47,866 nucleotides of DNA. Source: Bacillota bacterium. GTDB lineage: Bacteria; Bacillota; Limnochordia; DTU080. Below, piece by piece: positions 5,294 to 19,551 of this stretch (positions are counted from its first letter, which is position 1; each line of letters starts with the position of its first letter). The stretch spans positions 1 through 47,866 of the forward strand of contig DULU01000018.1 in NCBI GenBank assembly GCA_012840225.1, given 5' to 3'. The notes under the pieces were generated by a model. That model did no database searches. It saw nothing but the letters and a program-made list of their open reading frames with translations, and was not told where the DNA came from. A program made the position numbers and the translations under genes.

Positions 5294-5514
5294 GTCATAT
5301 GCGAAAGAAACCGGTGCCAAGAATATTATCATATAAAATGCAGGTTTGGAAGTATTATAACGCCGTATGGCGGCGGCAGCTTTGAGCGGTTCGCTACTAT
5401 GCAGGAATCACCATAGCAGTGAAAGAACTCCAATTACATACCGGTCAGGCGGAGCAGATTTGTCGAACTACGCCGGTTTCACAGCCGAATTTTCCGGGCA
5501 AAGGGAGGATACAT

Positions 5515-6768
5515 ATGCGCAAAGCAGCTAGATTCGGTCTATTTGTCATGGTACTTGTCATGGTCTTGAGCAGCGCAGTGGTAGCAGAAAAAACCAAGTT
5601 GGTATGGGCGACCTGTTGCAGCCAGACGGAGCGGCATACGCTATTTAAAGAACTGGCCAAGCAGTATATGGATCAGCATCCGGATATCGAGATCGAGTGG
5701 ATTTATCCCACCGGCAATTATACGAACAACATCATGACATGGATTGTCGCCGGCACCGCTCCGGACGTGTTCTGGATCGGGGCGAGCGTGTACTCGTTCT
5801 ATAACCTGCTCATGCCCCTTAACGACCTGGTGGCCAAGGACCCCGACATTGCCCTGATCAACCCCATGGTGCTGGCCCAGGGAGCTTTTGCCGGTCGGCA
5901 AATATGCCTTCCCTTCGGCGCCAATGCCCATACGATGTTCTACAACAAGGACCTGCTGGGCACGGCGGGACTCGGTAATCCCGGTTGGAACTGGACTTTT
6001 GACGACATGGTAACTATGGCTCGCCGGTTGCAGAGAGACCTGAACGGCGACGGTGAACCTGACCAGTATGGCATCGATTTCAACACCATTGAATGGTCCG
6101 CCATTCTCTGGGGCGGTAATTACTATACCGACGACGGAAGGAAAGCCCAATTTGCCAATCCGGTGAGCATTGCCTCCACCCAGCTTTTTGTCGACCTGCG
6201 CAACGGCGTCATCCCGGGATATGTGCCGCCGACCAAGCGCCAAGCCAACGGCTCCCTCACCGGGCAGGTGGCGATGCGCAATGTGGGCATATTCGATCTC
6301 CCAGCTCACCGTCAAGCCACGTTCAACTGGGATATCCAGAGGCTGCCGGCCTTTGTTTATGACGGAAAGGAATACCGCTTCACTTACAACACCATCGAAG
6401 GTTGGTCGATCCCCGGCAACACCAAGCATCCCGAAGAAGCCAAGGCTTTCCTGGCTTGGCTCTTCAGCAAGGAAGTGCGTCAGCAGATAGCCGCCTCCCG
6501 CATCGTGATCCCCACGCAGCGGGATGTGGTCGACAGATTTATAAACGCTCCTGCTCCGCCCAGCAACTGGAACGCCTTCATCGATGCTCTGAACTGGGGC
6601 AATCAGTTGTCTCTGAATCATCCCGACGGGACAAGCATTCATAACTGGATGACGTCTCAGAAGCTCTGGAAGGATATGTGGGCCAATGCGGTGCCGGCTG
6701 CCGTGGCCTTGCCGGAAATCCAAACCGGTGTCAACCAGCTTCTGGATGAGTTCTGGGCCCGCAATTAA
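5515..6768 (+). CDS. ABC transporter family 1 solute-binding protein
   Basis: This is an extracytoplasmic sugar-binding protein, 417 residues. A Sec signal peptide (MRKAARFGLFVMVLVMVLSS, predicted cleavage near AVVA-EK) is followed by the family 1 fold: AGTAPDVFWIG in the first lobe, MFYNKDLLGTAG at the hinge, and GWSIPGNTKHPEEAKAFLAWL in the last third. No lipobox is visible. A loop at RDLNGDGEPDQYG resembles an EF-hand calcium site. The ATG at 5515 has AGGGAGG 8 bases upstream; the longer frame is rejected. No permease genes adjoin it, so it must use permeases encoded elsewhere or act as a scavenger. Confidence 0.93.
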   Translation: MRKAARFGLFVMVLVMVLSSAVVAEKTKLVWATCCSQTERHTLFKELAKQYMDQHPDIEIEWIYPTGNYTNNIMTWIVAGTAPDVFWIGASVYSFYNLLMPLNDLVAKDPDIALINPMVLAQGAFAGRQICLPFGANAHTMFYNKDLLGTAGLGNPGWNWTFDDMVTMARRLQRDLNGDGEPDQYGIDFNTIEWSAILWGGNYYTDDGRKAQFANPVSIASTQLFVDLRNGVIPGYVPPTKRQANGSLTGQVAMRNVGIFDLPAHRQATFNWDIQRLPAFVYDGKEYRFTYNTIEGWSIPGNTKHPEEAKAFLAWLFSKEVRQQIAASRIVIPTQRDVVDRFINAPAPPSNWNAFIDALNWGNQLSLNHPDGTSIHNWMTSQKLWKDMWANAVPAAVALPEIQTGVNQLLDEFWARN

Positions 6769-6989: not shown

Positions 6990-8738
6990 ATGCACATGAG
7001 CGCGGACAAAAGTGTAAATGAGAACATAAGCGACAGCCGGAACGACAGCCTAAATAAGATATATAGGAGATTTGAGCGGATGCCGCCATATGAGGAGCTG
7101 ACGTCCGCCTTGCAGAGTGCCGTGGCTCAAGCACCGCATCTGGCGAAGATGTGGTCCCTGGTAAAGAGCGAGGGCGGGCGGGACGTCTGGTGTGTGGAAG
7201 TGGCGGCCAATAAAGAGCTCCTGCCGCCGGCGCAGAGGCCGGCGCTCCTGGTGACGGGCAACATGCATGCCGCCGAGATCACCGGATCCATGATCGGCCT
7301 ATACCTTCTGGAATACCTGACGCAGAAATATCCCGCCGATGCCAGGGTGGCTGACGTGCTCGAGCAGATGGTGATCTATATCGTGCCGCGCCTTGCTGTG
7401 GACGGTGCTGAACTGGTGATCACCAAATCGGCGCCCGGCAGCGTGGCCCGCAGCAAGCCTCTATTTATAAAGCAGAAAAACGTCCCCTTCCCGGAAGATC
7501 TGGACGGCGACGGCCTCATCTTGACCATGAGGTGGCCGGACGAAAAATACGGCACCATGCGCCTCTCCGGTAAAGATAGCCGCCTCCTGGTGCCCAAGGA
7601 CACGCCCGGTGCCACCGGTCCCTGTTATGCCACTTGTCCTGAAGGCTTGATACATGACTGGGATGGGGGCCGTGTCGAGAATTCCCGCACGGTAAACGAT
7701 TTCAACCGCAACTTCCCGGCCAACTGGAGACCGGCCGTCGGCTGCCTCGGCGCCGGGCCTTATCCCTTGTCGGAGCCGGAGACCAGGGCGCTGGCCGACT
7801 TCGTCCTCGCCCACAGCAACCTGGTGGGAGTCATAGACTTTCACACGGGCAACCCGGCCATCTTCTACCCCAGTGCCGCCATAAAAGAGATATGCAAATA
7901 CCCGGAAGACAGCCGGCTGATTGAGAAGATCGGCCGCATAGGCGAAAGGCTAACCGGCTTCCCCCTCTTGAGCGGCTATCAGGAAGCCATAACCGGCGAA
8001 AAGACGGAGCGTCTCCCCGGCTGCTTCCGGGACTGGGTATATGAACATATCGGCCTCCCGGGCTTTATCGTGGAGACGGGCCTTTGCTATAACTATTTCG
8101 GCATTGCTACAGGGCAGAAGTTTGAGAGCCCGGCGATAAAAGAAGAAACGATCGGGCTGGTCCTGTTGCAATGTCATGACAGCTACCCCGAATATGGCCT
8201 CTTCCACGACTGGCGACCTTTTGATCATCCGCAACTGGGCCGGGTGGAGATCGGCGGCTGGCATCGGGCTATCTGGAGCTGCGCTCCCTTGTTCGCCACC
8301 GGGGAAATCTGCAGCCGGTGCGTCGACTTCGTGATGGAGTGTGCCGCCTACCGTCCGGAAATAGAGGTGACGGCAGAGGTTCAGGCTCTCGCCCCCGTCC
8401 CTGCCTCCGCCCCCACCTCTACCCGCACCTCCGCCCCTGCCTCCGCCCCTGCCTCCGCCCTCTATAAGATTACCGTCACCTTGCACAACAGCGGTCCGGT
8501 ATCCACCAGCATCACCCGCCAGGGAGCAGCCATGTATCCCCACGCCCTGCCGGTGATAAAGCTGCAGGGAGCTGATGAGATGATCATCGGGCGGGCGTGG
8601 CAGAAAATTGCCCACCTGAATCCGGGAGAGACGCACACCCTGGAATGGGTGGTGCGGGCTGAAGCCGCCGCCCTGAAGCTCGAGCTTTCCGCCGAGCGAG
8701 GCGGGATATATAAGCAGGTCGTCATTCCCTTGCGTTGA
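6990..8738 (+). CDS. M14 family zinc carboxypeptidase
   Basis: This 582-residue metallopeptidase has the M14 zinc site visible as His93 and Glu96 (NMHAAE) and His285 (DFHTGNP). It has the substrate-binding DFNRNFP motif (Asn239-Arg240) and a candidate catalytic Glu362 (FIVETG). It would release C-terminal residues from peptides or cleave amide bonds. No signal peptide is visible, so it is probably cytoplasmic. Residues about 468-490 are a proline/alanine/serine/threonine linker from a degenerate 6- to 12-bp repeat, joining a beta-rich C-terminal domain of about 95 residues. ATG 6990 or ATG 6996 may be the start; AAGGA fits the second slightly better. An M55 peptidase follows 55 bases later, suggesting joint peptide recycling. 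Confidence 0.88.
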   Translation: MHMSADKSVNENISDSRNDSLNKIYRRFERMPPYEELTSALQSAVAQAPHLAKMWSLVKSEGGRDVWCVEVAANKELLPPAQRPALLVTGNMHAAEITGSMIGLYLLEYLTQKYPADARVADVLEQMVIYIVPRLAVDGAELVITKSAPGSVARSKPLFIKQKNVPFPEDLDGDGLILTMRWPDEKYGTMRLSGKDSRLLVPKDTPGATGPCYATCPEGLIHDWDGGRVENSRTVNDFNRNFPANWRPAVGCLGAGPYPLSEPETRALADFVLAHSNLVGVIDFHTGNPAIFYPSAAIKEICKYPEDSRLIEKIGRIGERLTGFPLLSGYQEAITGEKTERLPGCFRDWVYEHIGLPGFIVETGLCYNYFGIATGQKFESPAIKEETIGLVLLQCHDSYPEYGLFHDWRPFDHPQLGRVEIGGWHRAIWSCAPLFATGEICSRCVDFVMECAAYRPEIEVTAEVQALAPVPASAPTSTRTSAPASAPASALYKITVTLHNSGPVSTSITRQGAAMYPHALPVIKLQGADEMIIGRAWQKIAHLNPGETHTLEWVVRAEAAALKLELSAERGGIYKQVVIPLR

Positions 8739-8793
8739 ATTTTTGACTATAGACTAAAAAGCAAATTTTAAAGCAGATATGCTGGGAGGTATC

Positions 8794-9615
8794 ATGCATA
8801 TGAAAGTGTACATCATGACCGATCAGGAAGGTGTAGCCGGCGTCATCAATTCGGTAGATTTCGCCTCACCCGGAGCCAGATATTACGAAGTAGCCCGAGA
8901 GCTCCTCACCCTGGAGGTGAATGCCGCCGTTGAGGGAGTTTTGGAGGAAGGTGCCACCGACATACTCGTCGTCGACGGTCACGGCCACGGTTCCATCAAC
9001 CCGCTGCTTTTGCATCCGCAAGCCCGCCTGCTTGCCGGCCGGCCAATGGGGTACCCCTTCTGCTGCGACTCCAGTTTCGATTGTGCCATCATGATCGGCC
9101 AGCATTCCAAAGCCAATACCGACGGCGGCCACCTGGCGCACACCGGGTCGTTCACTGTCGAGGAACTCACCATTAACGGCATTTCCCTGGGAGAAGCCGG
9201 CTGCAACATGCTCTTCTGCGGCTATTTCAATGTGCCGATGGTTATGCTTTCAGGCGATCTGGCGGCTTGTATGGAAGTAAAAGCTCTCGTCCCCGAAATG
9301 GAAGTGGCCCCGGTCAAAGAGGGGATCAAGCGCGGCACAGGTGCCGGCATGACGGCAGAAACCGCCGTGGGGTATAATGGCGCAGCTATCCACCTCCATC
9401 CGATCAAAGCCCGCGAGCTCATCAAAGAAACAGCGAAAAGAGCCGTGAGGCGCCGGGCAGAGATTAAACCTTTCCGGCTGGATCCGCCTTATGAACTGGT
9501 GAGCATCACCCGCCGCAAACAAGACGGCACTCCGCAGATGAAAGCCGTTGTTCACTCCAATGATATGATTGATCTACTCAACAAACCGCGCCGCTACCAG
9601 CCCATATCCGGCTAG
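8794..9615 (+). CDS. dppA: M55 family D-aminopeptidase (DppA-like)
   Basis: This 273-residue peptidase is close to the length of Bacillus DppA, which forms a ring-shaped zinc-dependent D-aminopeptidase that cuts D-Ala peptides. The family metal site is recognisable: Asp10 and Glu12 (MTDQEG), His63 (DGHGHG), His104 (GQHSKA) and Glu134 (SLGEAG). The probable catalytic His is in GGHLAHT. ATG 8794 follows GGGAGGT at good spacing; ATG 8800 is an alternative. It follows the M14 carboxypeptidase in the same direction, and together they suggest degradation of cell-wall-type peptides. It is cytoplasmic, with no signal peptide. The symbol is given by family likeness. Confidence 0.92.
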   Translation: MHMKVYIMTDQEGVAGVINSVDFASPGARYYEVARELLTLEVNAAVEGVLEEGATDILVVDGHGHGSINPLLLHPQARLLAGRPMGYPFCCDSSFDCAIMIGQHSKANTDGGHLAHTGSFTVEELTINGISLGEAGCNMLFCGYFNVPMVMLSGDLAACMEVKALVPEMEVAPVKEGIKRGTGAGMTAETAVGYNGAAIHLHPIKARELIKETAKRAVRRRAEIKPFRLDPPYELVSITRRKQDGTPQMKAVVHSNDMIDLLNKPRRYQPISG

Positions 9616-9681: not shown

Positions 9682-11646
9682 ATGTCTACGGGAAAGGGAA
9701 CAATACTCTTTCTGCTGCTTTTTTCGCTGTTATGTCTGCCGTTTTCGCCGGCTATGGGCGCCTCGCCCACCGGCAGCCCGTCCCCTGCTTACGGCCATGA
9801 GGCCAATGACACCGGCGATCCCGTCGGCGGCGGCCCCGGCTACAGCCGCATCTTCAGCGGCGGCACCTTTGAGGTGTCGAGTTTGCCGGAGCTCCTGGCG
9901 GCCCTGAATGCCGCTACCCCAGGCAGTGTGGTGTATATCACATCCGGTACGGTGATCGATGTCAACGCAGACAATCCTCAGGCCAAAGTGACCATCTTCA
10001 TTCCTCCCGGTGTCACCTTAGCCGGAGACAGAGGTTTAAACGGCAGTCCCGGACCCTTAATCAAATGCAGCAACTACGACACCGCTCCCCTCATCGAGCT
10101 CTCGGCCGGGGCCAGGCTCACCGGGCTGAGAATAGAGGGACCGGACGGCGAAGCCGGCGAATCGGCTACCTGGCGTCCCAATTCCCGGGGCGTGGATATC
10201 AGCGGTGATGCGGCGGAGGTGGATAACTGCGAAATATATAACTGGAGCCATGCCGGGGTGAATGTCAAAGCCGGAGAGGCCTACATTCACCACAACAGCA
10301 TCCATCACGTGCGCCGCACAGGTTTGGGTTACGGCGTTCTCATCTCCCGAGGTACAGCCCTGATCGAAGCCAATGTCTTCGACTGGTTCCGCTGCGCCGT
10401 CGCCGGCACGGGATTCTACGGCACCGGTTATGAAGCCCGCTACAACCTGACGCTGGACAATGCCGCCGCCACCACCTTCGATATGCACGGCGGCACCAAC
10501 TTTTGCCCTTCCCGTTCCGCTACCTCCCCCTGCACCGAGGAGGAAATCCGCATCGCCGGCGATTACGTGCGCATCCATCACAACACCATCATGGCCGTTT
10601 ATACCAGGCCTATCGGTATCAAAGGCGTGCCCACGCAGGAACTTTCGGTCTACGGCAACCGCTTCGCCACCTCCGATCCATCTTTTGCCTTCAAACAGTT
10701 CTATTTCGACGGCGGCAACACCAAGGTATACGACAATATGTACGGGATGAAGGGTATAGTAGTTCCGGAGCAATACAGCCCCAGCCCGTTCATCCGCCAA
10801 TGCCCGCAGACCACCTGCAACGGCAAAGGACCCATTGTCGCTCTGGCGCCCTCAGCCACGGACAGGCATCTGAAATTCATCAATCCCCCCGAAGATGCTG
10901 CCGGACAGAGCACCTTCACCGGCCTGTTACCGGTGGAGTTGAGCATCAATGTAGGTGAGGATTTCAGGGCCAACTCATATACGCTGATGGTGGATGATGA
11001 CGGCGGGGTGATATATCAAAAGGAACGTCCGCCCATACCGGGCGAGGTGACGATCGACACCACAAGCCTCGCTGATGGCCGGCACAAGCTGGAGATAGTG
11101 ATCGGCAATGCGACAGGCGACAGCATCAGGCGGCATGTCTATTTTTTGGTAGACAATAAATGGGAAATCGTCGACAACTTCGATGCTCCCATCTACAGCC
11201 CCTGGTTCGGCTGGATTGGTGCAGAAAAGACCCTGCAGGCCTCCTCAGGTTGGACCTATGCCGAAGACAGCGAGAAAGAATTCTGGGGTGATACCGGCCG
11301 CCGGGTAATCAAGGCTGAGGACAGCGCTGCTGATGCTGAATACCTGATCTGGCAGGATGATGGGTTGTCGGAATATCGGGTGGTGCTATATGTCGCCCGG
11401 ACGGAGTTGGCAGGGAACGTCACCATGGCTGTTTCCGCAGATAACGCCACATGGACGACTCTTCCCATAGAAATGACAGTGGAAGCGCCTTCGTCCCCGG
11501 CAGGCAACAGATGGCACAAGGTGGAACTGTTCGGCAGCGTACCGACCGGGGTGGAAACCGGGTATGTGCGCCTGCAACTTCTCCCCCCGGCCTCCGCGGA
11601 CGAGCTGCAGCTGGGCGCCGTGATCCTCAGCGGCAAACAGAAATAA
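9682..11646 (+). CDS. Secreted right-handed beta-helix protein (pectate-lyase-like)
   Basis: This 654-residue protein has a signal peptide (residues 1-26, ending AMGA) and a parallel beta-helix at about 60-355. The helix is recognisable by repeated coils such as DNCEIYNWSHAGVNV, HHNSIHHVRRTG and EANVFDWFRCAVAGTG. A lyase or glycosidase acting on an acidic polysaccharide is likely, but I cannot fix the catalytic residues. Residues about 415-652 form a separate C-terminal region, an Ig-like domain (TTSLADGRHKLEI) followed by a terminal module (SGWTYAEDSEKEFWGD). The same region closes the PL6-like lyase at 14887. A ribosome site AGAGAGG stands 12 bases before the ATG. Confidence 0.85.
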   Translation: MSTGKGTILFLLLFSLLCLPFSPAMGASPTGSPSPAYGHEANDTGDPVGGGPGYSRIFSGGTFEVSSLPELLAALNAATPGSVVYITSGTVIDVNADNPQAKVTIFIPPGVTLAGDRGLNGSPGPLIKCSNYDTAPLIELSAGARLTGLRIEGPDGEAGESATWRPNSRGVDISGDAAEVDNCEIYNWSHAGVNVKAGEAYIHHNSIHHVRRTGLGYGVLISRGTALIEANVFDWFRCAVAGTGFYGTGYEARYNLTLDNAAATTFDMHGGTNFCPSRSATSPCTEEEIRIAGDYVRIHHNTIMAVYTRPIGIKGVPTQELSVYGNRFATSDPSFAFKQFYFDGGNTKVYDNMYGMKGIVVPEQYSPSPFIRQCPQTTCNGKGPIVALAPSATDRHLKFINPPEDAAGQSTFTGLLPVELSINVGEDFRANSYTLMVDDDGGVIYQKERPPIPGEVTIDTTSLADGRHKLEIVIGNATGDSIRRHVYFLVDNKWEIVDNFDAPIYSPWFGWIGAEKTLQASSGWTYAEDSEKEFWGDTGRRVIKAEDSAADAEYLIWQDDGLSEYRVVLYVARTELAGNVTMAVSADNATWTTLPIEMTVEAPSSPAGNRWHKVELFGSVPTGVETGYVRLQLLPPASADELQLGAVILSGKQK

Positions 11647-11722
11647 CGGACGGATGACCGATGATAACACGGCAAAATAACAGACCCCAGATATAACAAC
11701 AGATATAACAATCGAAAATGCG

Positions 11723-11750
11723 CTGGGGCGGCTTTCTACAGCCGCCCCAG
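11723..11750. terminator. Bidirectional terminator between convergent genes
   Basis: A perfect 11-bp stem, CTGGGGCGGCT (11723-11733) with AGCCGCCCCAG (11740-11750), has a 6-base loop. T-rich DNA follows on the plus side (AGTTTATAT), and ATTTTCGAT follows on the minus side. It lies between the beta-helix gene and the minus-strand binding-protein gene and should end both transcripts. Confidence 0.85.
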
Positions 11751-11813
11751 AGTTTATATCAATGCGCTCATGTCCATGCATAGACCATGCTTATGCTTAA
11801 GCTTCTATCACTA

Positions 11814-13082
11814 TCACCAGGTGAAGGGCGCTTCCTTCAGCAAGGTGTTGATGGTGGTTTCGATCTCCCCCATGGCCTGGGCTGTGCTCTTTTCGCCTTT
11901 AGCCACAGCAGTCAAGGCGGCGATGAAGGGGCCTTGTATCTGCGTCCAGTTCGGAGAGATCAAGAGCGGCACATCCCAGAAGTAGTTGCTCCCTTCCAGC
12001 ATGGAATAGACATCCTCCAGTGTGAGGGAATAGCGGGTCTGGAATTGTTCGGTCCACTGCCGGTAGTACCGGCGATTCACTACCGGAGCGTTCCCGGAAC
12101 GGTAGTCGGCCCAGTACATCACCCCGTCGTCGGCGGTAAAGAATTTTATAAACTCCCAGGCGGCTTCGGGATCTTGAGCCGTCTTGCTCATGGCCCAGCC
12201 GTTGATGCCGCCCTGCATGGCCGACTGAGTCCCCCAAGGCATCGGCGCCACGGCCAGTTCGTACGCCTGGGTATTGGCGGCAAAGGCCGGCGGCGGCGTC
12301 TGCCCTATTCTCATGGAATACTGTACCCCGCTGTGCGCTCCCCACCGCGGCGTCACCATATAGGTGAGCGAGAGATCCATCCATTTGTTGATGGCGTCGA
12401 TCAGCGGCGGGGTAGCCCCGAGGAAGCGGTTGTTATATGGATCAACCCATTGCTGACCCCATATGCCGACATAGAGCCAGCCGAATTGGGTGGGAAACTC
12501 CAGACCCCAGCGATCGATCTTACCGTCGCCGTCGAGATCCCGCGTCAGCTTGCGGGCCGTCTCGACAAAGCTGTCCCACTGCAAAGCGCTGTGGCCCCAC
12601 CTGGTCGGCAGCCGCTCCAAACCGGCCTCCTTAAAGTGAGCGGCGCTGTACCACAGCACGGTGGAGGACACCTCATAGGGGATGAAAAAGTGCTGGCCTG
12701 TCGGCTTGAAAGCCCAATAGTTGATCACCGGATCGGGGAAATCCGACTTATCAAAGCGATCCCGCTCCATATATTTGTCAAGCGGTACGATGAAGTCCAA
12801 CGCCTTGGACTGGTAAGCCCTGGCCTGGTCCACCCGCACCACGTCGAACGGCAAACCGGCGGCAATCATGGAACGCACCCTGGTCTCATACTGAGTCCAG
12901 GTAGTGGCGATGCACTCGACTTCAATACCGGTCCTTTTGGTAAATTCGGCAGCTGCTTGCTCTGTACCCTTGATGTTTCCCGTAGCATCTATTACGACGA
13001 TCTTCCTGGCAGCAAAAGCTTCTCCGGCCATGAGCACAGCCAGAAGCATTATTGCCGCCAATACTTTAGCAACAGCCTTCAT
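11814..13082 (-). CDS. ABC transporter family 1 solute-binding protein
   Basis: This is a 422-residue extracytoplasmic sugar-binding protein with signal peptide MKAVAKVLAAIMLLAVLMAG (cleavage near AFA-AR). Family 1 traits are FDVVRVDQARAY in lobe 1, TVLWYSAAHFKEAGLERLP near the hinge, and INGWAMSKTAQDPEAAWEFI. The loop RDLDGDGKIDRWG looks like a calcium-binding EF-hand loop. ATG 13082 is preferred; a GTG at 13094 is in frame but overlaps the AAGGAG site. It is divergently arranged with another binding-protein gene at 13440, with no permease nearby. Confidence 0.92.
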   Translation of the reverse strand: MKAVAKVLAAIMLLAVLMAGEAFAARKIVVIDATGNIKGTEQAAAEFTKRTGIEVECIATTWTQYETRVRSMIAAGLPFDVVRVDQARAYQSKALDFIVPLDKYMERDRFDKSDFPDPVINYWAFKPTGQHFFIPYEVSSTVLWYSAAHFKEAGLERLPTRWGHSALQWDSFVETARKLTRDLDGDGKIDRWGLEFPTQFGWLYVGIWGQQWVDPYNNRFLGATPPLIDAINKWMDLSLTYMVTPRWGAHSGVQYSMRIGQTPPPAFAANTQAYELAVAPMPWGTQSAMQGGINGWAMSKTAQDPEAAWEFIKFFTADDGVMYWADYRSGNAPVVNRRYYRQWTEQFQTRYSLTLEDVYSMLEGSNYFWDVPLLISPNWTQIQGPFIAALTAVAKGEKSTAQAMGEIETTINTLLKEAPFTW

Positions 13083-13439
13083 TGATAAAACCACTCCTTA
13101 AAACTGATTCTCTTTCCGGCAACGCCTTTTCTCTGCCCGCCCAATTTCTGCGTCTGCGGCATGGACTTTGACCGCCGGCGGCCGGTGGCGGTATTAATTA
13201 CGCCTCACATAATAATTCACTGGTCCCAAAGTAATATCCCTCCAGCCGTCCTGAATACTAAAATCACAATATTTGTTCTCTATGTGGCTATATAAACTTA
13301 AAATATTTATGTTATTTGGTATTCCTGCCTTTTCCTGGTGTATATGCTGCTGATGTGGTATTATGATTTATGTAGGTTAGCACAATTTGGATTCGGCCTC
13401 ATCGTATCACCACAAATATTAAAAGTATGGAGGGTTTGC
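13083..13439. other. AT-rich divergent control region between two binding-protein genes
   Basis: This 357-base gap separates two divergently read binding-protein genes and must contain both promoters. The half from about 13195 to 13330 is distinctly AT-rich. I could not find an unambiguous -35/-10 pair on either strand. The plus-strand frame from 13338 into the second gene lacks a ribosome site and is not counted as coding. Confidence 0.5.
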
Positions 13440-14735
13440 ATGTCAAAGTTACAACAGTCGGTATTGGCAATAGTGTTTATTGTTTGTTTGTCGCTCGTGT
13501 CGCCGTCGGCTACCTGTGCAAAGGAGAAAACTGTGGTCGATTTTTGGTGGGGCGGCATCGCCAACTACACTGAGAATATGATGCAGCTGGTGCAGGATTT
13601 TAACGAGCAGAATACCTCCGTGGAAGTGCGCATGACTGTGCAGCCGCATATCGGTATGTCGGGAGTGGGTATCGAGACGCTGAAAACGGCCATTGCCGGC
13701 GGCGCACAGCCTGATGTGGTCGTTCTGGACGGTACCATCCTCATCGGCCTGGCCATTGAGGACGGCCTTTTTATGGATCTGAGGGAGATTATAGACCCTT
13801 CGTTTCTGTATGCCATCCCATATGCCGCCAACATAAAAAACTACGTGATGTTTAGGGACAGCGTTTATGGCATACATTTTCAGACCGATGCCCGCGGTCT
13901 CTACTTCAACCAGACGCATTTCGCCGAGGTGGGGTTGGACCCGAGAAAAGGCCCGAAAAGCATAGATGAGCTGGATCAATATGCCGCCAAACTCACCCGC
14001 AGAGATGCTCAGGGCCGGATAGAAAGGCAAGGTTATTCCCCCAGGGGCGGCAATTTCGGCTTGGAGCTTGGATGGTTTTGGGTGTTCGGCGGTAATGTTT
14101 TCGACTATAACACCATGCTGCCGACCTTTACAAATAATGAAGCTCACCTCGCGGCGTTAAGATGGATTGAATCGTATGCCGATAAATACTCGACTGCGGC
14201 AATCACCAGCGCCGGCAATAACTTCATGGCCGGCAAAGTATCCATGAGCGTACAAAGCACGAGCCTCCTCGGGACGCTGCCGGTTCAGGCTCCGGATATG
14301 GAATGGTGGGTAAGCACCATCCCCTACCCGCCTGAGGGCAGGCTGATAACCATGTCGTCCGGTTACTCGGCGGTGGTTCCCAAAGGGGCCAAAAACGCTG
14401 TGGCTGCGGCGGAATTCATCCGCTATCTGATCGACAAAAACACCCAGATGAACTGGTATCGCATGACGAAGACCGTCCCCACCAGAGTTGATGCCATACT
14501 CGAGTTGGTACAAAAGCGGGAGATCACCGATCCGAGAGCCATCTGTATGATAGAGTTGATGCCCACTGCAGCCGAAATTTACCCACCGCTATTCGTAAAT
14601 TATGTACTTCCTCAGTTGAGCAATTACATAAACCAGATGTGGAATAAGCAAATTCCGCCGGCCGAAGTGCTTGAAAAGGTACAGTTCGCTGTCGAACCGG
14701 AATACAGGCGTATTTTCCATGGGAAAGCCTTTTAG
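13440..14735 (+). CDS. ABC transporter family 1 solute-binding protein
   Basis: This 431-residue sugar-binding protein has signal peptide MSKLQQSVLAIVFIVCLSLV (cleavage near TCA-KE). Family traits are AGGAQPDVVVLDG in lobe 1, the hinge-side GLYFNQTHFAEVGLDP, and VVPKGAKNAVAAAEFIRYL. Where two neighbours have a calcium-type loop, this one has the degenerate LTRRDAQGRIERQG, which keeps the loop position but not the ligands. The ATG at 13440 is preceded by GGAGGG at 6 bases. It precedes the PL6-like lyase gene by 150 bases in the same direction, so it may capture lyase products. Confidence 0.92.
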   Translation: MSKLQQSVLAIVFIVCLSLVSPSATCAKEKTVVDFWWGGIANYTENMMQLVQDFNEQNTSVEVRMTVQPHIGMSGVGIETLKTAIAGGAQPDVVVLDGTILIGLAIEDGLFMDLREIIDPSFLYAIPYAANIKNYVMFRDSVYGIHFQTDARGLYFNQTHFAEVGLDPRKGPKSIDELDQYAAKLTRRDAQGRIERQGYSPRGGNFGLELGWFWVFGGNVFDYNTMLPTFTNNEAHLAALRWIESYADKYSTAAITSAGNNFMAGKVSMSVQSTSLLGTLPVQAPDMEWWVSTIPYPPEGRLITMSSGYSAVVPKGAKNAVAAAEFIRYLIDKNTQMNWYRMTKTVPTRVDAILELVQKREITDPRAICMIELMPTAAEIYPPLFVNYVLPQLSNYINQMWNKQIPPAEVLEKVQFAVEPEYRRIFHGKAF

Positions 14736-14736
14736 A

Positions 14737-14845
14737 CGGTCAGCCGACCGATCGTCGGCCACCTGGTCGGCCCCAAGTCGGCCAACCTAGTCGACTACCT
14801 CACCATCCCCCTAGCCGGCCACCTCGCCTGCTAGGGGGAGCGGCA
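14737..14845 (+). terminator. Repeat-rich spacer with hairpin after the binding-protein gene
   Basis: Several imperfect copies of GGTCGGCC lie at about 14740-14800. CCCCCTAGC and GCTAGGGGG (about 14808-14838) can form a 9-bp stem with a 14-base loop, followed by AGCGGCATTTTAAAA. This may attenuate or end transcription before the lyase gene. Confidence 0.5.
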
Positions 14846-14886
14846 TTTTAAAATATCAGAACAACAGAAAGGAGCAAAGGCAGAAT

Positions 14887-17800
14887 ATGAACATCTCGCT
14901 TCCGCTCCAGTTCCCGCATCCTTACCCGTTCCTCATCTCGCTCCCGCTCCCACACCAGCTCCCGCTTTCGGTGGCGAGACGCCTTATCCAGCTTTGTGGC
15001 CTCGTCGCCATTCTGGTCATGGCTTTCGCACCGGTCCTGCTGACGAGCCAGGCTCAGGCTGCGGCGGCCGCCGCCGGCGCGGAGGCACCGGTCGACTCCG
15101 GCGAAGCCAACCTTTTGACCAATCCCGGATTTGAAGATGTAGTCAATAACGATTTTCCGGGATGGACGCGCTATGTACCGATGGGCAATAGAAATGGTCT
15201 GCAGATATCCACCGACGCCAGGAGCGGCAAATATTCCGCCCTGGTAGACGTGGCCGCCGCCCTGAAAGACTCCGACAGCAGCGTAGCCAGGCTTGATTGG
15301 TCGCAACGGTTGCGGTATAACATGGACCTGCAAGTGAAACCGGTTCCCGGAGAAAAATACCGCTTTTCCGTATATTACAAGACGGAAGGCAATCCCAAAG
15401 GCAGACTGGGCGTGGAGCGGCGTCCGCACATGACTAACGTCTATCTCAATCTGGCGCCCTCGCCGGATTGGCAGTATGCGGCCGTAGAATTCGAATGGCC
15501 GGATGCCGCCGACTGGAATTTGGTGTTCGGCCTGTGGGCCTGGGAAGCCCGGGAAGGCAAAATCTGGTTCGACGATGCTCGCCTGGAACAGGTGCTGCCG
15601 GAAACGGAGAAGGCGCCTGTGGAAAGAGTCCGGTGGCAGGATCCGGCGGCCGTCTTCTCCCTCCCATACACCGATGCTTCCGGCCTCTCCCGGCCATATA
15701 TCAATCAGGCCAAGCGTTTGACGTTCGTGCAATCGCTGTCCGAGCTTACGGCGGCCATTGCCGCCGCTATGCCGGGCGACACCATCATCCTGGAAGACGG
15801 CGAATATTACGGATATACATCGGTCATCATCGAAGGCAAACATGGGACGGAAGAACGGCCGATCGTCATTGCAGCGAAGAACATCGGCCAAGCCGTCATG
15901 CGCGGCTCGGCCCAATTTATAATTAAAAACTCCAGTTACATAGTGGTGGAAGGCCTGGATTTCCGCCTTTCATCCGGCGGAGCCCCCGGATATTCGGGAC
16001 GCAGGGAGAATAGCGCCGTTATCTTGCATGATGCTCTGGGCGCCAGGATCACCCGCAACCGCTTTGCCCTGGAAGAAGAATATGGCGGCACCTCGCTGCG
16101 GGACTGGATAAACGTTGACGGCAGCCGGGGTGGATATAACCGCATTGATCACAACCTATTCGAAAACAAAGTGCACAACGGCAGCTATATTGCCGTCAAT
16201 GCCGATCTGGGGCGAAATCAGGGCATCGACACCACGCCCAGGCACACCCGGATTGATCACAATCACTTTCGCCACATGGCTCCACTGGGTATCAACGGCA
16301 TGGAAGTGATCCGGCTCGGCTCGTCCGGCTATCGCGATATGGCCCATATCGAGGCGCACACCATCGTTGAATACAACTTGTTCGAACAGGCCGACGGCGA
16401 AAAATCGGAGATCATCTCCATCAAAGACAGCGGCAATATCATCCGTTACAACACCTTTCTGGAAACAGCCGGCAGTGTAGTTCTGCGGTTCGGCCACCAC
16501 AACTCCATCTATGGAAATTATTTCCTGGGCAAGGGCAAACCTGGTACCGGCGGCGTCCGCATATATGGCTTCAGGCAGCAGATCTTCAATAATTACTTTG
16601 CCGATTTAGCCGGGCCGGCTATTATCTTCGGTCGGGGAAGCATTGAGGATCCGTATGCTTTGCCTAAAGGCGAGCTTTATTATTCAGGAGCCGAATATGT
16701 GCAGATGGATGAGGTGGAGGTGGTGATGAACACCTTCATCAACAATAATGCCAACTTCGACCTGCGGGGCGATTGGCCGCTGGAACCAAGGCGCACCACC
16801 GTGGCCCACAATTTGCTGGTGGCCGGCAACAACTACAACCACATCATCGGCAGCAGCTACCGGAATCTGTTGTCTCACGACGGCATCAGGTGGGTGGGTA
16901 ACATGGTCAGCGGTCCGGTCAACACTTTGCTGGGTCTGTCTTCCTCCTCCGAAGGCAGTTTTATACCGGTCGACCTGGAGCTTATGAGAAGCCTCGACGA
17001 TATTTATTACCCCGTTGCCGGGAGTCCTACGATCGATGCAATAGAGGTCGGAGATGCTTATGGTTATGTAACCCGCGACATCGAAGGCAAGCTCCGGGAC
17101 GAACATCCTGATGTGGGCGCCTTTGAATACCAGGGATTTCCCCTGGTGCAAGGTCCGCTCTCCCCTGCCGAGGTCGGTCCTTTTTGTCCGGATGAACGCC
17201 GGGAGTTGACCTTTGCCGAGCCGCTGGTGACCATCACTTCCCTCCAGTTTACCCCGCACACATCCGGAACACCCGTGGTGCTCTCCGGTACCAGCCTGCT
17301 CCAACTGGCCGGTGTCGTCCTGGGGGCAGGTGAAGCAGACGAGAAGACAAGTCTATCTGTTGATGTCACTGTCAGTATCGATGGAGCCGAGTTCTTCTCT
17401 GAGCGGGTGGCTGTGGCCGGCTTGACCGCCGACACCTTTGCCGCCGATGCCGGCTTTGCTGATGGCGGTTTTGCGGGTCCCGGCTTTTCCTTGGAGATAC
17501 CCATAAACACCACCAACCTGGACGAAGGCGAGCACAGCCTGCGCCTTGTGGCAGAAGTGAACGGTAGGCGCACCCTGCGTGAGCTCATGTTCAGCGTGCA
17601 AAATATAGAGATTATGACGCCTGGAGCCCGGAACGTGGTGACCGGTAAGGGCATTATCACGATCAAATCGCTTTTGCCGGCTGCCGAAATACGCCGGGTG
17701 CATATCTCCATCGACGACCAGCTGATATTCCAAGGCGAGGTCATCCCGGATAAGCTGGAGTTCGACTCCCTTTCTTTCAGCGACGGTCGCCGGCAACTGA

Positions 17801-18330
17801 CGGTGGAAGTGGAACGGCATAGCGGCGGGATCTCCCGAATCAGCGGGAACTTTAAGGTGGAAAACCTCTGGCAGACGGTCGACGAACTCCTGCCCCCGAT
17901 GCAGTTTTTCGGTCAGCTGCTGGATAGAGCCCAAACCTCAAGCCGCTCGGACGGCTGGGTTTATGCCACGGAAGCAGCCGACGATTTTCTGGGCGACGAC
18001 AGTCGCCTGACTGTGGGTGACGGGAGCACACCGCAATTTCTGGAGTGGGAAGCTCCTAATTTGCTTAAGGCGGCAGTCACGGTCTATTCTCAGGAACCAT
18101 TAATCAGTCCGCAAGCCATCGAGTTCGCACTGTCGCCGGATGGAGTGACATATAAAACCATCGAATTCTCTATTTCATCCGTCGGTCGCTCGAGTGCCGG
18201 CTGGAACAAATACCTGCTAACCGCCGAGACTCAAGGACAGGGACAGGACAGCAAACTCTTCCGCCTCACCATAAATCCCCACGGCGGCGAGATACAAATT
18301 GGCCTCGTGGAGTTGACCGGCCTTAGATAA
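14887..18330 (+). CDS. PL6-like polysaccharide lyase, multidomain, secreted
   Basis: This 1147-residue protein has an export signal at about residues 29-58 (LVAILVMAFAPVLL...AQA) behind an odd proline/leucine-rich start (LPLPHQLPL). Next come a carbohydrate-binding-like beta-sandwich (75-235, beginning LLTNPGFED) and a parallel beta-helix of the chondroitinase B/alginate lyase family (about 280-745). Lys513 (SIKDS) and Arg534 (LRFGHHN) are 21 residues apart, exactly as the catalytic Lys and Arg of known PL6 enzymes. Two Ig-like domains and a terminal module follow, and the end matches the 9682 protein. It should eliminate within uronate polymers such as alginate or chondroitin/dermatan. AAGGAG and AAAGG lie upstream of the ATG. 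Confidence 0.85.
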   Translation: MNISLPLQFPHPYPFLISLPLPHQLPLSVARRLIQLCGLVAILVMAFAPVLLTSQAQAAAAAAGAEAPVDSGEANLLTNPGFEDVVNNDFPGWTRYVPMGNRNGLQISTDARSGKYSALVDVAAALKDSDSSVARLDWSQRLRYNMDLQVKPVPGEKYRFSVYYKTEGNPKGRLGVERRPHMTNVYLNLAPSPDWQYAAVEFEWPDAADWNLVFGLWAWEAREGKIWFDDARLEQVLPETEKAPVERVRWQDPAAVFSLPYTDASGLSRPYINQAKRLTFVQSLSELTAAIAAAMPGDTIILEDGEYYGYTSVIIEGKHGTEERPIVIAAKNIGQAVMRGSAQFIIKNSSYIVVEGLDFRLSSGGAPGYSGRRENSAVILHDALGARITRNRFALEEEYGGTSLRDWINVDGSRGGYNRIDHNLFENKVHNGSYIAVNADLGRNQGIDTTPRHTRIDHNHFRHMAPLGINGMEVIRLGSSGYRDMAHIEAHTIVEYNLFEQADGEKSEIISIKDSGNIIRYNTFLETAGSVVLRFGHHNSIYGNYFLGKGKPGTGGVRIYGFRQQIFNNYFADLAGPAIIFGRGSIEDPYALPKGELYYSGAEYVQMDEVEVVMNTFINNNANFDLRGDWPLEPRRTTVAHNLLVAGNNYNHIIGSSYRNLLSHDGIRWVGNMVSGPVNTLLGLSSSSEGSFIPVDLELMRSLDDIYYPVAGSPTIDAIEVGDAYGYVTRDIEGKLRDEHPDVGAFEYQGFPLVQGPLSPAEVGPFCPDERRELTFAEPLVTITSLQFTPHTSGTPVVLSGTSLLQLAGVVLGAGEADEKTSLSVDVTVSIDGAEFFSERVAVAGLTADTFAADAGFADGGFAGPGFSLEIPINTTNLDEGEHSLRLVAEVNGRRTLRELMFSVQNIEIMTPGARNVVTGKGIITIKSLLPAAEIRRVHISIDDQLIFQGEVIPDKLEFDSLSFSDGRRQLTVEVERHSGGISRISGNFKVENLWQTVDELLPPMQFFGQLLDRAQTSSRSDGWVYATEAADDFLGDDSRLTVGDGSTPQFLEWEAPNLLKAAVTVYSQEPLISPQAIEFALSPDGVTYKTIEFSISSVGRSSAGWNKYLLTAETQGQGQDSKLFRLTINPHGGEIQIGLVELTGLR

Positions 18331-18504: not shown

Positions 18505-19551
18505 TTATCGCCCTTCTGCCAGCAGAGCGGCAATCTGGTCTTCGATACTGGCCATGGCCTGTTGCGGTGCCATCTGCCCGGCGCATACTTTGTTGACCAT
18601 GGAGAAAATGGTATTGGAGATGGTGGTGAAGTTCTGCAGATGGTTCGGGATGGGAGTGGCATAATTTAGCGCATCCAGGACGGCTTTGGCATTCGCCACC
18701 CCGAGCCCTTGCCGGAAGGCGGGACTGGTGACCACCGAACGCCTGGGCTGGATGATGATGCCGGCAGCCGACTGCCGCTGGGACATTTCCTTGCTGAACA
18801 TGAATTTAAAGAACTCGGCCGCTTCTTCCTTATGGGGGCTGGTGGCAATCAGGGCATATGGCACGGGCTGCAGCGACGTCGCCGGGCCGGCCGGTCCCTG
18901 CGGCAGAGCCGCCACTTCCCAGCCATAAGCCATTTTGGCATCACGGAGCAGTTGAATGACCGCCGGAGTCTCGTTGAGCATGGCTGTTTTCCCGGAGGCA
19001 AAATCGTTCCACGGTCCCCAGCGGAAAGCACCGTGCGAAAAGCCGTCCGCCAGATAGCGCAGTGTCTCAATACCTTGGCTGCTGCCGAGGTTCAGCCTGG
19101 TATAATCCGGATCGAAGAGCCCTGTGCCGCCTTGCGCAAACCAGTAAACCAGGTGGCCGATCACCTGGCCGAAGGTACCACCGGCCCTGTCGATTACCCC
19201 GTCGCCGTCTTGATCGATGCTCAGCTTGCGGGCGGCTTGTAAATAGGCCTCCCAGTTCCAGCTCCTGTCGAGCCAGTCGGCGGCCGGAGGATGCAGGCCG
19301 GCAGCACCGAAAAAGTCCGCATTATAATATAGATGGTAATAGGATATTCTCTGCGGAATCCCGTACAGTTTGCCTTTCACGGTCAAGGCATCCAACACCG
19401 GTTTATAAAAGTCGTTCAGATCAAAGGCGGGATCATTGCCCAACAGCTCACTCAGGTCAAGCAGGATGCCGTCCCTGGCCATGCCGTAGAAGTAGTTGGG
19501 GTGAAAATCGACGATATCCGGTGGTGTTCCCGCCGCCACCCTGATGCGCAC
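18505..19551 (-). pseudogene. Family 1 solute-binding protein lacking its N-terminus
   Basis: The 348-residue frame begins at RIRVAAGTPPDIVDF, which corresponds to about residue 70-85 of a normal family 1 binding protein. It then continues normally (YYNADFFGAAGLHPP, SIDQDGDGVIDRAGG, TSPHKEEAAEFFKFMFSKEMS) to the end. No signal peptide and no ribosome site are present, and the frame upstream is closed by TGA after a few codons. The missing part is replaced at about 19555-19575 by sequence reading as a toxin-antitoxin remnant on the plus strand. I judge it a 5'-deleted, non-exported relic. Confidence 0.75.

Follow-up and report, generated by a model that had tools for sequence, protein, structure and literature searches.

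A C-terminal tail of an Ig-like domain and a predicted jelly-roll sandwich on many different enzymes of an outer-membrane-bearing Bacillota class

Main

To our knowledge, the placement of large enzymes outside the outer membrane has been little studied in diderm Bacillota such as Limnochordia. Here we describe a C-terminal module, hereafter the tail, that ends the products of two genes in a 47,866-nucleotide stretch of DNA (the window; positions 1 to 47,866 of contig DULU01000018.1, assembly GCA_012840225.1) from a Bacillota bacterium of the Limnochordia lineage DTU080. The gene at position 9,682 encodes a right-handed beta-helix protein (the 9682 protein) and the gene at position 14,887 encodes a lyase resembling polysaccharide lyase family 6 (PL6). 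A first-pass annotation, made from the letters alone, had proposed that both end in an immunoglobulin (Ig)-like unit followed by a terminal sandwich of no recognised family, possibly a new carbohydrate-binding or cell-surface attachment module. The two genes and their parts, supported by profile hidden Markov models (HMMs), database matches and structure models, are as follows.

9682..11646, + strand: right-handed beta-helix protein, 654 residues, predicted secreted, with tail (PF13229 Beta_helix, E 1.8e-6; hydrophobic N-terminus)
10912..11145, + strand: tail Ig-like domain, 9682 protein residues 411–488 (HMM; homologous copies match Big_13/Big_7; strands in the model)
11146..11643, + strand: predicted terminal jelly-roll sandwich, 9682 protein residues 489–654 (AlphaFold2 model; Foldseek and VIA; 96 homologues)
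14887..18330, + strand: PL6-like lyase, 1,147 residues, with tail (Chondroitinas_B PF14592, E 5.5e-48, residues 281–625; alginate lyases of the PDB, E 1.9e-40)
15727..16761, + strand: PL6 catalytic beta-helix, lyase residues 281–625 (alignment to solved PL6 alginate lyases over the EIIS.K and RFGHHN stretches)
17470..17616, + strand: recognisable part of an extra upstream Ig-like unit, lyase residues 862–910 (HMM; weak pairwise)
17638..17853, + strand: tail Ig-like domain, lyase residues 918–989 (HMM)
17854..18327, + strand: predicted terminal jelly-roll sandwich, lyase residues 990–1147 (HMM; alignments)

Two window proteins share a homologous tail

Residues 411–651 of the 9682 protein align with residues 919–1145 of the lyase by blastp (E 1e-16, 26% identity), and a Smith–Waterman alignment of the two whole tails scores 183, against a mean of 35.4 for 500 shuffles (s.d. 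5.1, maximum 59). Both halves contribute when aligned alone, the sandwich scoring 109 (shuffle maximum 62) and the Ig part 58 (shuffle maximum 41). The match first placed at about residues 415–652 and 910–1145 is thus borne out as homology, with a score beyond all 500 shuffles; chance likeness of the two copies is rejected by these scores and by an iterated HMM that finds 19 such tails in the genome. The motif SxGWxYAxxxxxxFxGDxxR is exact in both proteins (SSGWTYAEDSEKEFWGDTGR, SDGWVYATEAADDFLGDDSR), and EYLxW/FLEW is seen as EYLIW and QFLEW. The opening motif, (S/T)LxDGxHxLxxxV, is looser than had been claimed, the lyase reading SFSDGRRQL with F in place of L and R in place of H. The second Ig copy reported in the lyase at about residues 780–905 is real and is recognisable only in its C-terminal half, residues 862–910 (independent E value 3e-6); in pairwise comparison it is weakly similar to the Ig domain of the 9682 protein (53, shuffle maximum 58) and scores the same as shuffles against the next Ig domain of the lyase itself (30).

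By profile and PDB sequence matches, the lyase belongs to PL6, with both the chondroitinase-B-like beta-helix and the conserved catalytic stretch present. Solved PL6 entries (AlyGC, BcAlyPL6 and others) share its catalytic domain but match it only up to residue 713, and none matches the tail.

A search of the 9682 protein against the window's own genome (3.55 Mb; labelled G000, the other G numbers being working labels of related genomes) gave 22 matches: itself, two nearly full-length paralogues (51% and 42% identity) and 19 further C-terminal stretches. The iterated HMM placed a full tail on 19 G000 proteins. The HMM search against genomes that the first-pass annotation had proposed gave 96 tails across seven genomes, 19 of them in G000. 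The idea of a module shared by two polysaccharide enzymes therefore stands for the two window proteins but is too narrow, and some partners are not obviously polysaccharide enzymes (an amidohydrolase, a metallophosphoesterase and DUF4886 proteins).

The sandwich is a predicted jelly-roll without a named family

Structure prediction with AlphaFold2 returned a jelly-roll for the terminal part. The whole tail (window 10888–11643, 14 rows) was modelled with a predicted local distance difference test score (pLDDT) of 89.3 and a predicted template modelling score (pTM) of 0.77, and the sandwich alone (11146–11643) with a pLDDT of 88.4 and a pTM of 0.83. These models divide the tail into an Ig-like domain and a jelly-roll sandwich of about 160 residues.

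The closest structures by VIA-align are the gingipain cleaved-adhesin domains K1 (Z 10.5, 3.0 Å over 137 residues), K2 (10.4) and K3 (10.3), followed by carbohydrate-binding module (CBM) family CBM27 (10.2, 4.5 Å over 139 residues), reelin (10.0), Eph receptors and the carbohydrate-binding domain of a putative pectate lyase (both 9.8), and CBM61 and CBM32 (both 9.5). The gingipain matches (Z 10.3–10.5, 3.0–3.3 Å over 134–137 residues) share only 10–13% identity with the tail, are domains of one protease and are tied in Z with CBMs and others. With Foldseek the best CBM was CBM29 (E 6.8e-4), and the alginate-binding CBM entry 8zqf gave one row (E 3.5e-3) with no match by sequence. The modelled fold is thus that of several named CBM families, a trait that also occurs outside CBMs: within one Z unit of the top lie adhesin, CBM27, reelin, Eph, MAM-type and insecticidal-protein domains, so that no single named family could be assigned from the fold. 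Because the jelly-roll is common, the fold neither names a family nor shows a function.

At the sensitivity of HMMER, the sandwich has no significant match in Pfam, NCBIfam or PDB sequences, and scans of these and of PHROGs ruled out a named-family identity at that level. No Pfam CBM profile reached its curated cut-off in the sandwich of any of the 19 G000 tails, F5_F8_type_C alone giving matches, short of that cut-off, in 2 of the 19 (best E 0.11); no NCBIfam profile passed its cut-off for them (best E 0.0048, PorU, 3 of 19); and hmmsearch of PDB sequences gave five distinct sequences at E ≤ 10, all in the Ig region (profile positions ≤ 85 of 235). A match to a named CBM or surface-domain family, which the first-pass annotation had said would overturn its view, was therefore not found, and by sequence the sandwich appears to be an unnamed family. 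The Ig half matches Big_13 in 6 and Big_7 in 4 of the 19 members (best E 1.6e-4), mostly below the Pfam curated cut-off (in all cases in which a score was shown, except Big_7 in L017), and looks like an ordinary domain akin to these bacterial Ig-like families.

The tail is strictly terminal and carries a constant core

In the fetched loci, 106 proteins match the refined HMM and 96 have a near-full tail: 30 each in G001 and G002, 19 in G000, 8 in G018, 6 in G003, 2 in G005 and 1 in G059. All 96 tails stop 1–15 residues (median 4) before the stop codon, the sandwich of the 9682 protein ending 3 residues before it by HMM, and neither internal nor doubled sandwiches occur (0 of 96 each). The selection demanded that a match run to the end of the model but set no condition on the end of the protein, and would therefore have counted internal copies. 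The ten uncounted proteins are contig-edge cases or fragments (G018_L090, G002_L051, G000_L022:7391, G018_L084:570 and G001_L096), Ig-only proteins (in G028 and G049, and G002_L097) and one each from G149 and G417. Two of the fragments, the short open reading frames (ORFs) L022:7391–7705 (104 residues) and L084:570–860 (96 residues), consist of the tail end only and are perhaps remnants of broken tail genes. Extra Ig units lie upstream in 32 of the 96 tail proteins, and PKD domains occur internally; confinement to the protein end is thus not a general property of accessory domains.

The Ig domain also occurs as a tail without the sandwich, since two proteins end there: a PL10-type (Pec_lyase) protein of G028 (L098:459–1763), of which it forms the C-terminal end, and G002_L097 (L097:636–2072), an intact paralogue of the 9682 protein that terminates after the Ig domain and whose downstream sequence showed no trace of a sandwich. 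In G049 (L099:1410–3317), too, an Ig-like domain alone forms the extreme C-terminus. G028 and G049 belong to other families of the class, and their Ig-only ends suggest that the Ig tail came before the sandwich was added, or that the sandwich was later lost.

Several residues are nearly invariant across the 96 tails: the W of SxGW (96/96), G (95/96), the R of GDxxR (94/96), the W of SxDxxxxW (93/96), the W of EYLxW (92/96) and D (88/96). Several of them sit in a loop between residues 111 and 138 of the model, and this core is constant whatever the enzyme partner.

Distribution among genomes

Profile A1, built from 19 rows, was used for the family, class and phylum searches. It matches all 3 genomes of the family and 14 of 72 in the class sample; the terminal sandwich is present in seven of the latter (G000, G001, G002, G003, G005, G018 and G059) and only the Ig part in the other seven (G024, G026, G027, G028, G046, G048 and G049). 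In the phylum sample 6 of 398 genomes match, with a full tail only in the window's own genome; the remaining matches are three of the Ig-only class genomes and two genomes outside the class, G149 and G417, whose Ig matches are internal, lying 124 and 244 residues from the protein end. In the G417 protein (L095:1595–4267), this tail-type Ig domain is followed by a region whose motif resembles that of an NPCBM domain, another jelly-roll.

The peptide pattern EYL[IV]WETP, scanned in a GTDB-based genome collection, gave 16 stretches, of which 10 were confirmed, all in two metagenome-assembled genomes (Clostridia bacterium DTU080, which NCBI taxonomy lists under unclassified Clostridia, and Bacillota bacterium AS08sgBPME_369) that presumably come from biogas digesters; such a single-pattern scan is insensitive to divergent tails and may exclude the window's own genome. 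A tblastn search of plasmids with one tail as query found no match. No description of the tail was found among the items listed in literature searches on Limnochordia, surface anchoring in diderm Firmicutes, the alginate module CBM96 and type IX secretion with Ig-like domains. Within what was searched so far, the tail is restricted to a few families of one outer-membrane-bearing Bacillota class, which GTDB taxonomy and the occurrence of Omp85 in 70 of its 72 genomes suggest is probably Limnochordia.

Tails are joined to many kinds of enzyme

Ahead of the tail, six of the 19 G000 proteins have a chondroitinase B/PL6 match, the window lyase included (L014:11886 only at E 7.5e-6), and the others comprise two heparinase II/III-like proteins, a PcRGLX-type lyase, an amidohydrolase, Pel9A/beta-helix proteins with PKD and several with no firm Pfam name for the remainder. 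All five G000 PL6 matches with E < 1e-20 bear the tail; G000:C66, a 586-residue frame with a short PL6 match, is not among the tail places. In the other genomes, the N-terminal parts of 69 of the 77 tail proteins (8 short or cut ones being omitted) match 63 Pfam families, the most frequent being Beta_helix (13), Hepar_II_III_C (8), PKD (7), Pec_lyase (6) and Glyco_hydro_43 (5), followed by Chondroitinas_B and PcRGLX (4 each), GH127 (3), and SASA, Glyco_hydro_16, Metallophos and DUF4886 (2 each). Overall the partners are PL6, PL10, heparinase II/III-like and rhamnogalacturonan-lyase-like enzymes, glycoside hydrolases of families GH43, GH16 and GH127-like, esterases, phosphoesterases and an amidohydrolase, with targets, by family, of pectin, arabinan, uronic-acid polymers, beta-glucan and phosphoesters. 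Because the partners are so mixed, a single glycan ligand for all their substrates is hard to see.

Export, envelope and neighbouring genes

A simple hydropathy rule, which only roughly stands in for signal-peptide prediction, finds a hydrophobic N-terminal stretch in 74 of 80 testable tail proteins; a crude pattern flags a lipobox-like stretch, of doubtful meaning, in 2 of 96. The proteins do not resemble LPXTG sortase cargo: an LPXTG-like motif and a transmembrane-like C-terminus occur in 1 of 96 each, in different proteins. SLH repeats were found in none of the 19 G000 tail proteins, nor do they figure in the 25 families listed for the other 69; elsewhere, SLH occurs in 71 of 72 class genomes, with only 4 matches in G000. 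Omp85 is encoded in 70 of 72 class genomes, which, together with published electron microscopy, points to an outer membrane in the host class: Limnochordia are described as diderm, their outer membrane being supported by electron micrographs and by outer-membrane marker genes (PMC11456536), and another source mentions OmpM of Limnochordia (PMC10628300). Secretins occur in 62 of 72 class genomes; a link between secretin and tail is ruled out by G001 (91% complete), which has 30 tails and no secretin.

The only widely recurring neighbour family is SBP_bac_1, of sugar-type solute-binding proteins: 31 of the 91 fetched loci contain 32 such ORFs, the family identity being checked on two of them (L010 and L091). 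The members tested (these two and four in the window) are of ordinary length, and the neighbour ORFs of the fetched loci are not among the tail HMM matches. Those in the window are:

5419–6768: SBP_bac_1 sugar-type solute-binding protein
11814..13094, − strand: SBP_bac_1 sugar-type solute-binding protein between the 9682 and lyase genes, without tail (PF01547, E 1.8e-22)
13338..14735, + strand: SBP_bac_1 solute-binding protein immediately upstream of the lyase gene, without tail (PF01547, E 4.7e-29)
18505..19551, − strand: SBP_bac_1 solute-binding protein downstream of the lyase gene, without tail (PF01547, E 2.5e-24)

Just upstream of the 9682 gene (window 6990–9615), a zinc carboxypeptidase (Peptidase_M14) adjoins a D-aminopeptidase (Peptidase_M55).

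Discussion

Our computations establish homology, the terminal placement of the tail, the diversity of its partners, its predicted fold and, within the scope searched, its restriction to one lineage; we infer export, a common ligand and a place for that ligand at the cell surface. We lean, tentatively, towards a reading in which outer-membrane-bearing Bacillota use the tail as a general C-terminal means of attaching their exported enzymes. A signal peptide would take the enzyme out of the cytoplasm; the Ig domain, sometimes two, would serve as a spacer; the jelly-roll would dock non-covalently on one common cell-surface ligand, such as a surface glycan, the S-layer or an outer-membrane protein; and the docked enzyme would stay near the cell whose ATP-binding cassette (ABC) importers take up its products. 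An attachment or sorting device seems likelier than a substrate-specific CBM because the sandwich is strictly terminal, single and partner-blind, with a constant core. The scarcity of other anchors (lipobox-like, LPXTG-like and transmembrane-like stretches, SLH), the frequent hydrophobic N-terminal stretch, the signs of an outer membrane and the neighbouring sugar-type binding proteins also speak in favour of attachment. The first-pass suggestion of a carbohydrate-binding or attachment module suits the predicted fold and the terminal placement, and predicts binding to a glycan or to the cell surface.

Several observations weigh against attachment to one common ligand. The sandwich fold is common to many CBMs (CBM27, 29, 61, 32 and 4), CBMs can sit at C-termini, and the conserved W, R and D residues may be structural. 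The same kind of enzyme can do without the sandwich, as in the 9682-protein paralogue of G002 that ends after its Ig domain, and G002:C87, a 505-residue frame with a strong PL6 match, is not among the tail places (a further G002 PL6 match, C169:10696, is close to the end of its contig and outside the fetched set). No receptor gene was found among recurrent neighbours, examined in short, mostly upstream flanks. A quick tree of the 96 tails, with weak support on 43 of its 93 inner branches, required 31 group changes for 73 proteins assigned to 17 N-terminal groups, versus 53.2 for shuffles (minimum 47–48, n = 500), a number so far below the shuffles that the tails appear to be old and mostly inherited with their enzyme. 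Genome labels required 37 changes (shuffles 53.0, minimum 45); when they were shuffled within enzyme groups, 29 changes were observed versus 33.1, with 7 of 500 shuffles as low. Clustering by genome is modest once the enzyme group is fixed and so does not point strongly to a genome-specific partner, and co-evolution in which one receptor drives all tails of a genome is not clearly supported by the within-group shuffles. Some exchange of tails between enzyme types within a genome did occur (for example, G001_L063 with G001_L066:2), and the tree favours neither an attachment tail nor a CBM strongly.

It is quite possible that the terminal sandwich is instead a new CBM family that holds enzymes on insoluble plant or microbial polysaccharide, with the Ig domain as a linker, a reading that follows closely because of the fold and the enzyme partners. 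Its predicted fold and size are shared with jelly-roll CBMs (VIA Z 8.9–10.2 for CBM27, 61, 32 and 4; Foldseek for CBM29), which are likewise attached to carbohydrate-active enzymes; most partners are polysaccharide enzymes, and the tails are mostly inherited with them. The tail differs from those modules in having no significant Pfam or PDB sequence match, in being always terminal and single (no internal or tandem sandwich in 96) and in the very mixed substrates of its partners, the same near-invariant residues recurring on enzymes for unrelated substrates, on an amidohydrolase and on phosphoesterases. Nor is the fold proof of function, as Eph receptor, reelin and MAM domains score equally.

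Type IX C-terminal domains of Bacteroidota offer another comparison, because there, too, many exported enzymes of one diderm genome share a beta-sandwich tail at the extreme C-terminus. That the tail is an export signal for such an outer-membrane secretion route, cleaved or kept, would fit its strictly terminal, partner-blind occurrence in many copies per genome of a diderm host, as would the weak PorU matches, although these most likely arise through Ig-like sheets. The tail differs in combining an Ig domain with a jelly-roll and in its lineage; at about 160 residues plus the Ig domain it exceeds the type IX tails known in size, SprA_N matches none of the seven tail genomes (control genomes likewise gave no match), and most class genomes lack the tail yet encode Omp85. 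We regard a pure export signal as unlikely. A bolder reading, likewise improbable, is that the tail marks enzymes for sorting and attachment through a route, so far unrecognised, that would place them outside the outer membrane of diderm Bacillota; it would then be a separately evolved functional counterpart of type IX C-terminal domains, with one receptor for 19–30 enzymes per genome. That the tail merely stabilises or oligomerises enzymes, with no ligand, is the least credible of these accounts: accessory domains of the beta-sandwich type often have a structural role in large secreted enzymes, and some enzymes of the same type lack the tail sandwich, but a stabiliser need not be terminal, and here partners of unrelated fold carry one tail with near-invariant loop residues.

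If the tail does attach enzymes at the surface, its presence on 19–30 enzymes in each of the three richest genomes would give a direct handle on enzyme placement; it could serve as bait for the receptor or glycan and as a marker to predict surface-held proteins in uncultured biogas bacteria. If the sandwich is a CBM instead, it would be a new family, joined to enzymes that act on many plant and uronic polymers.

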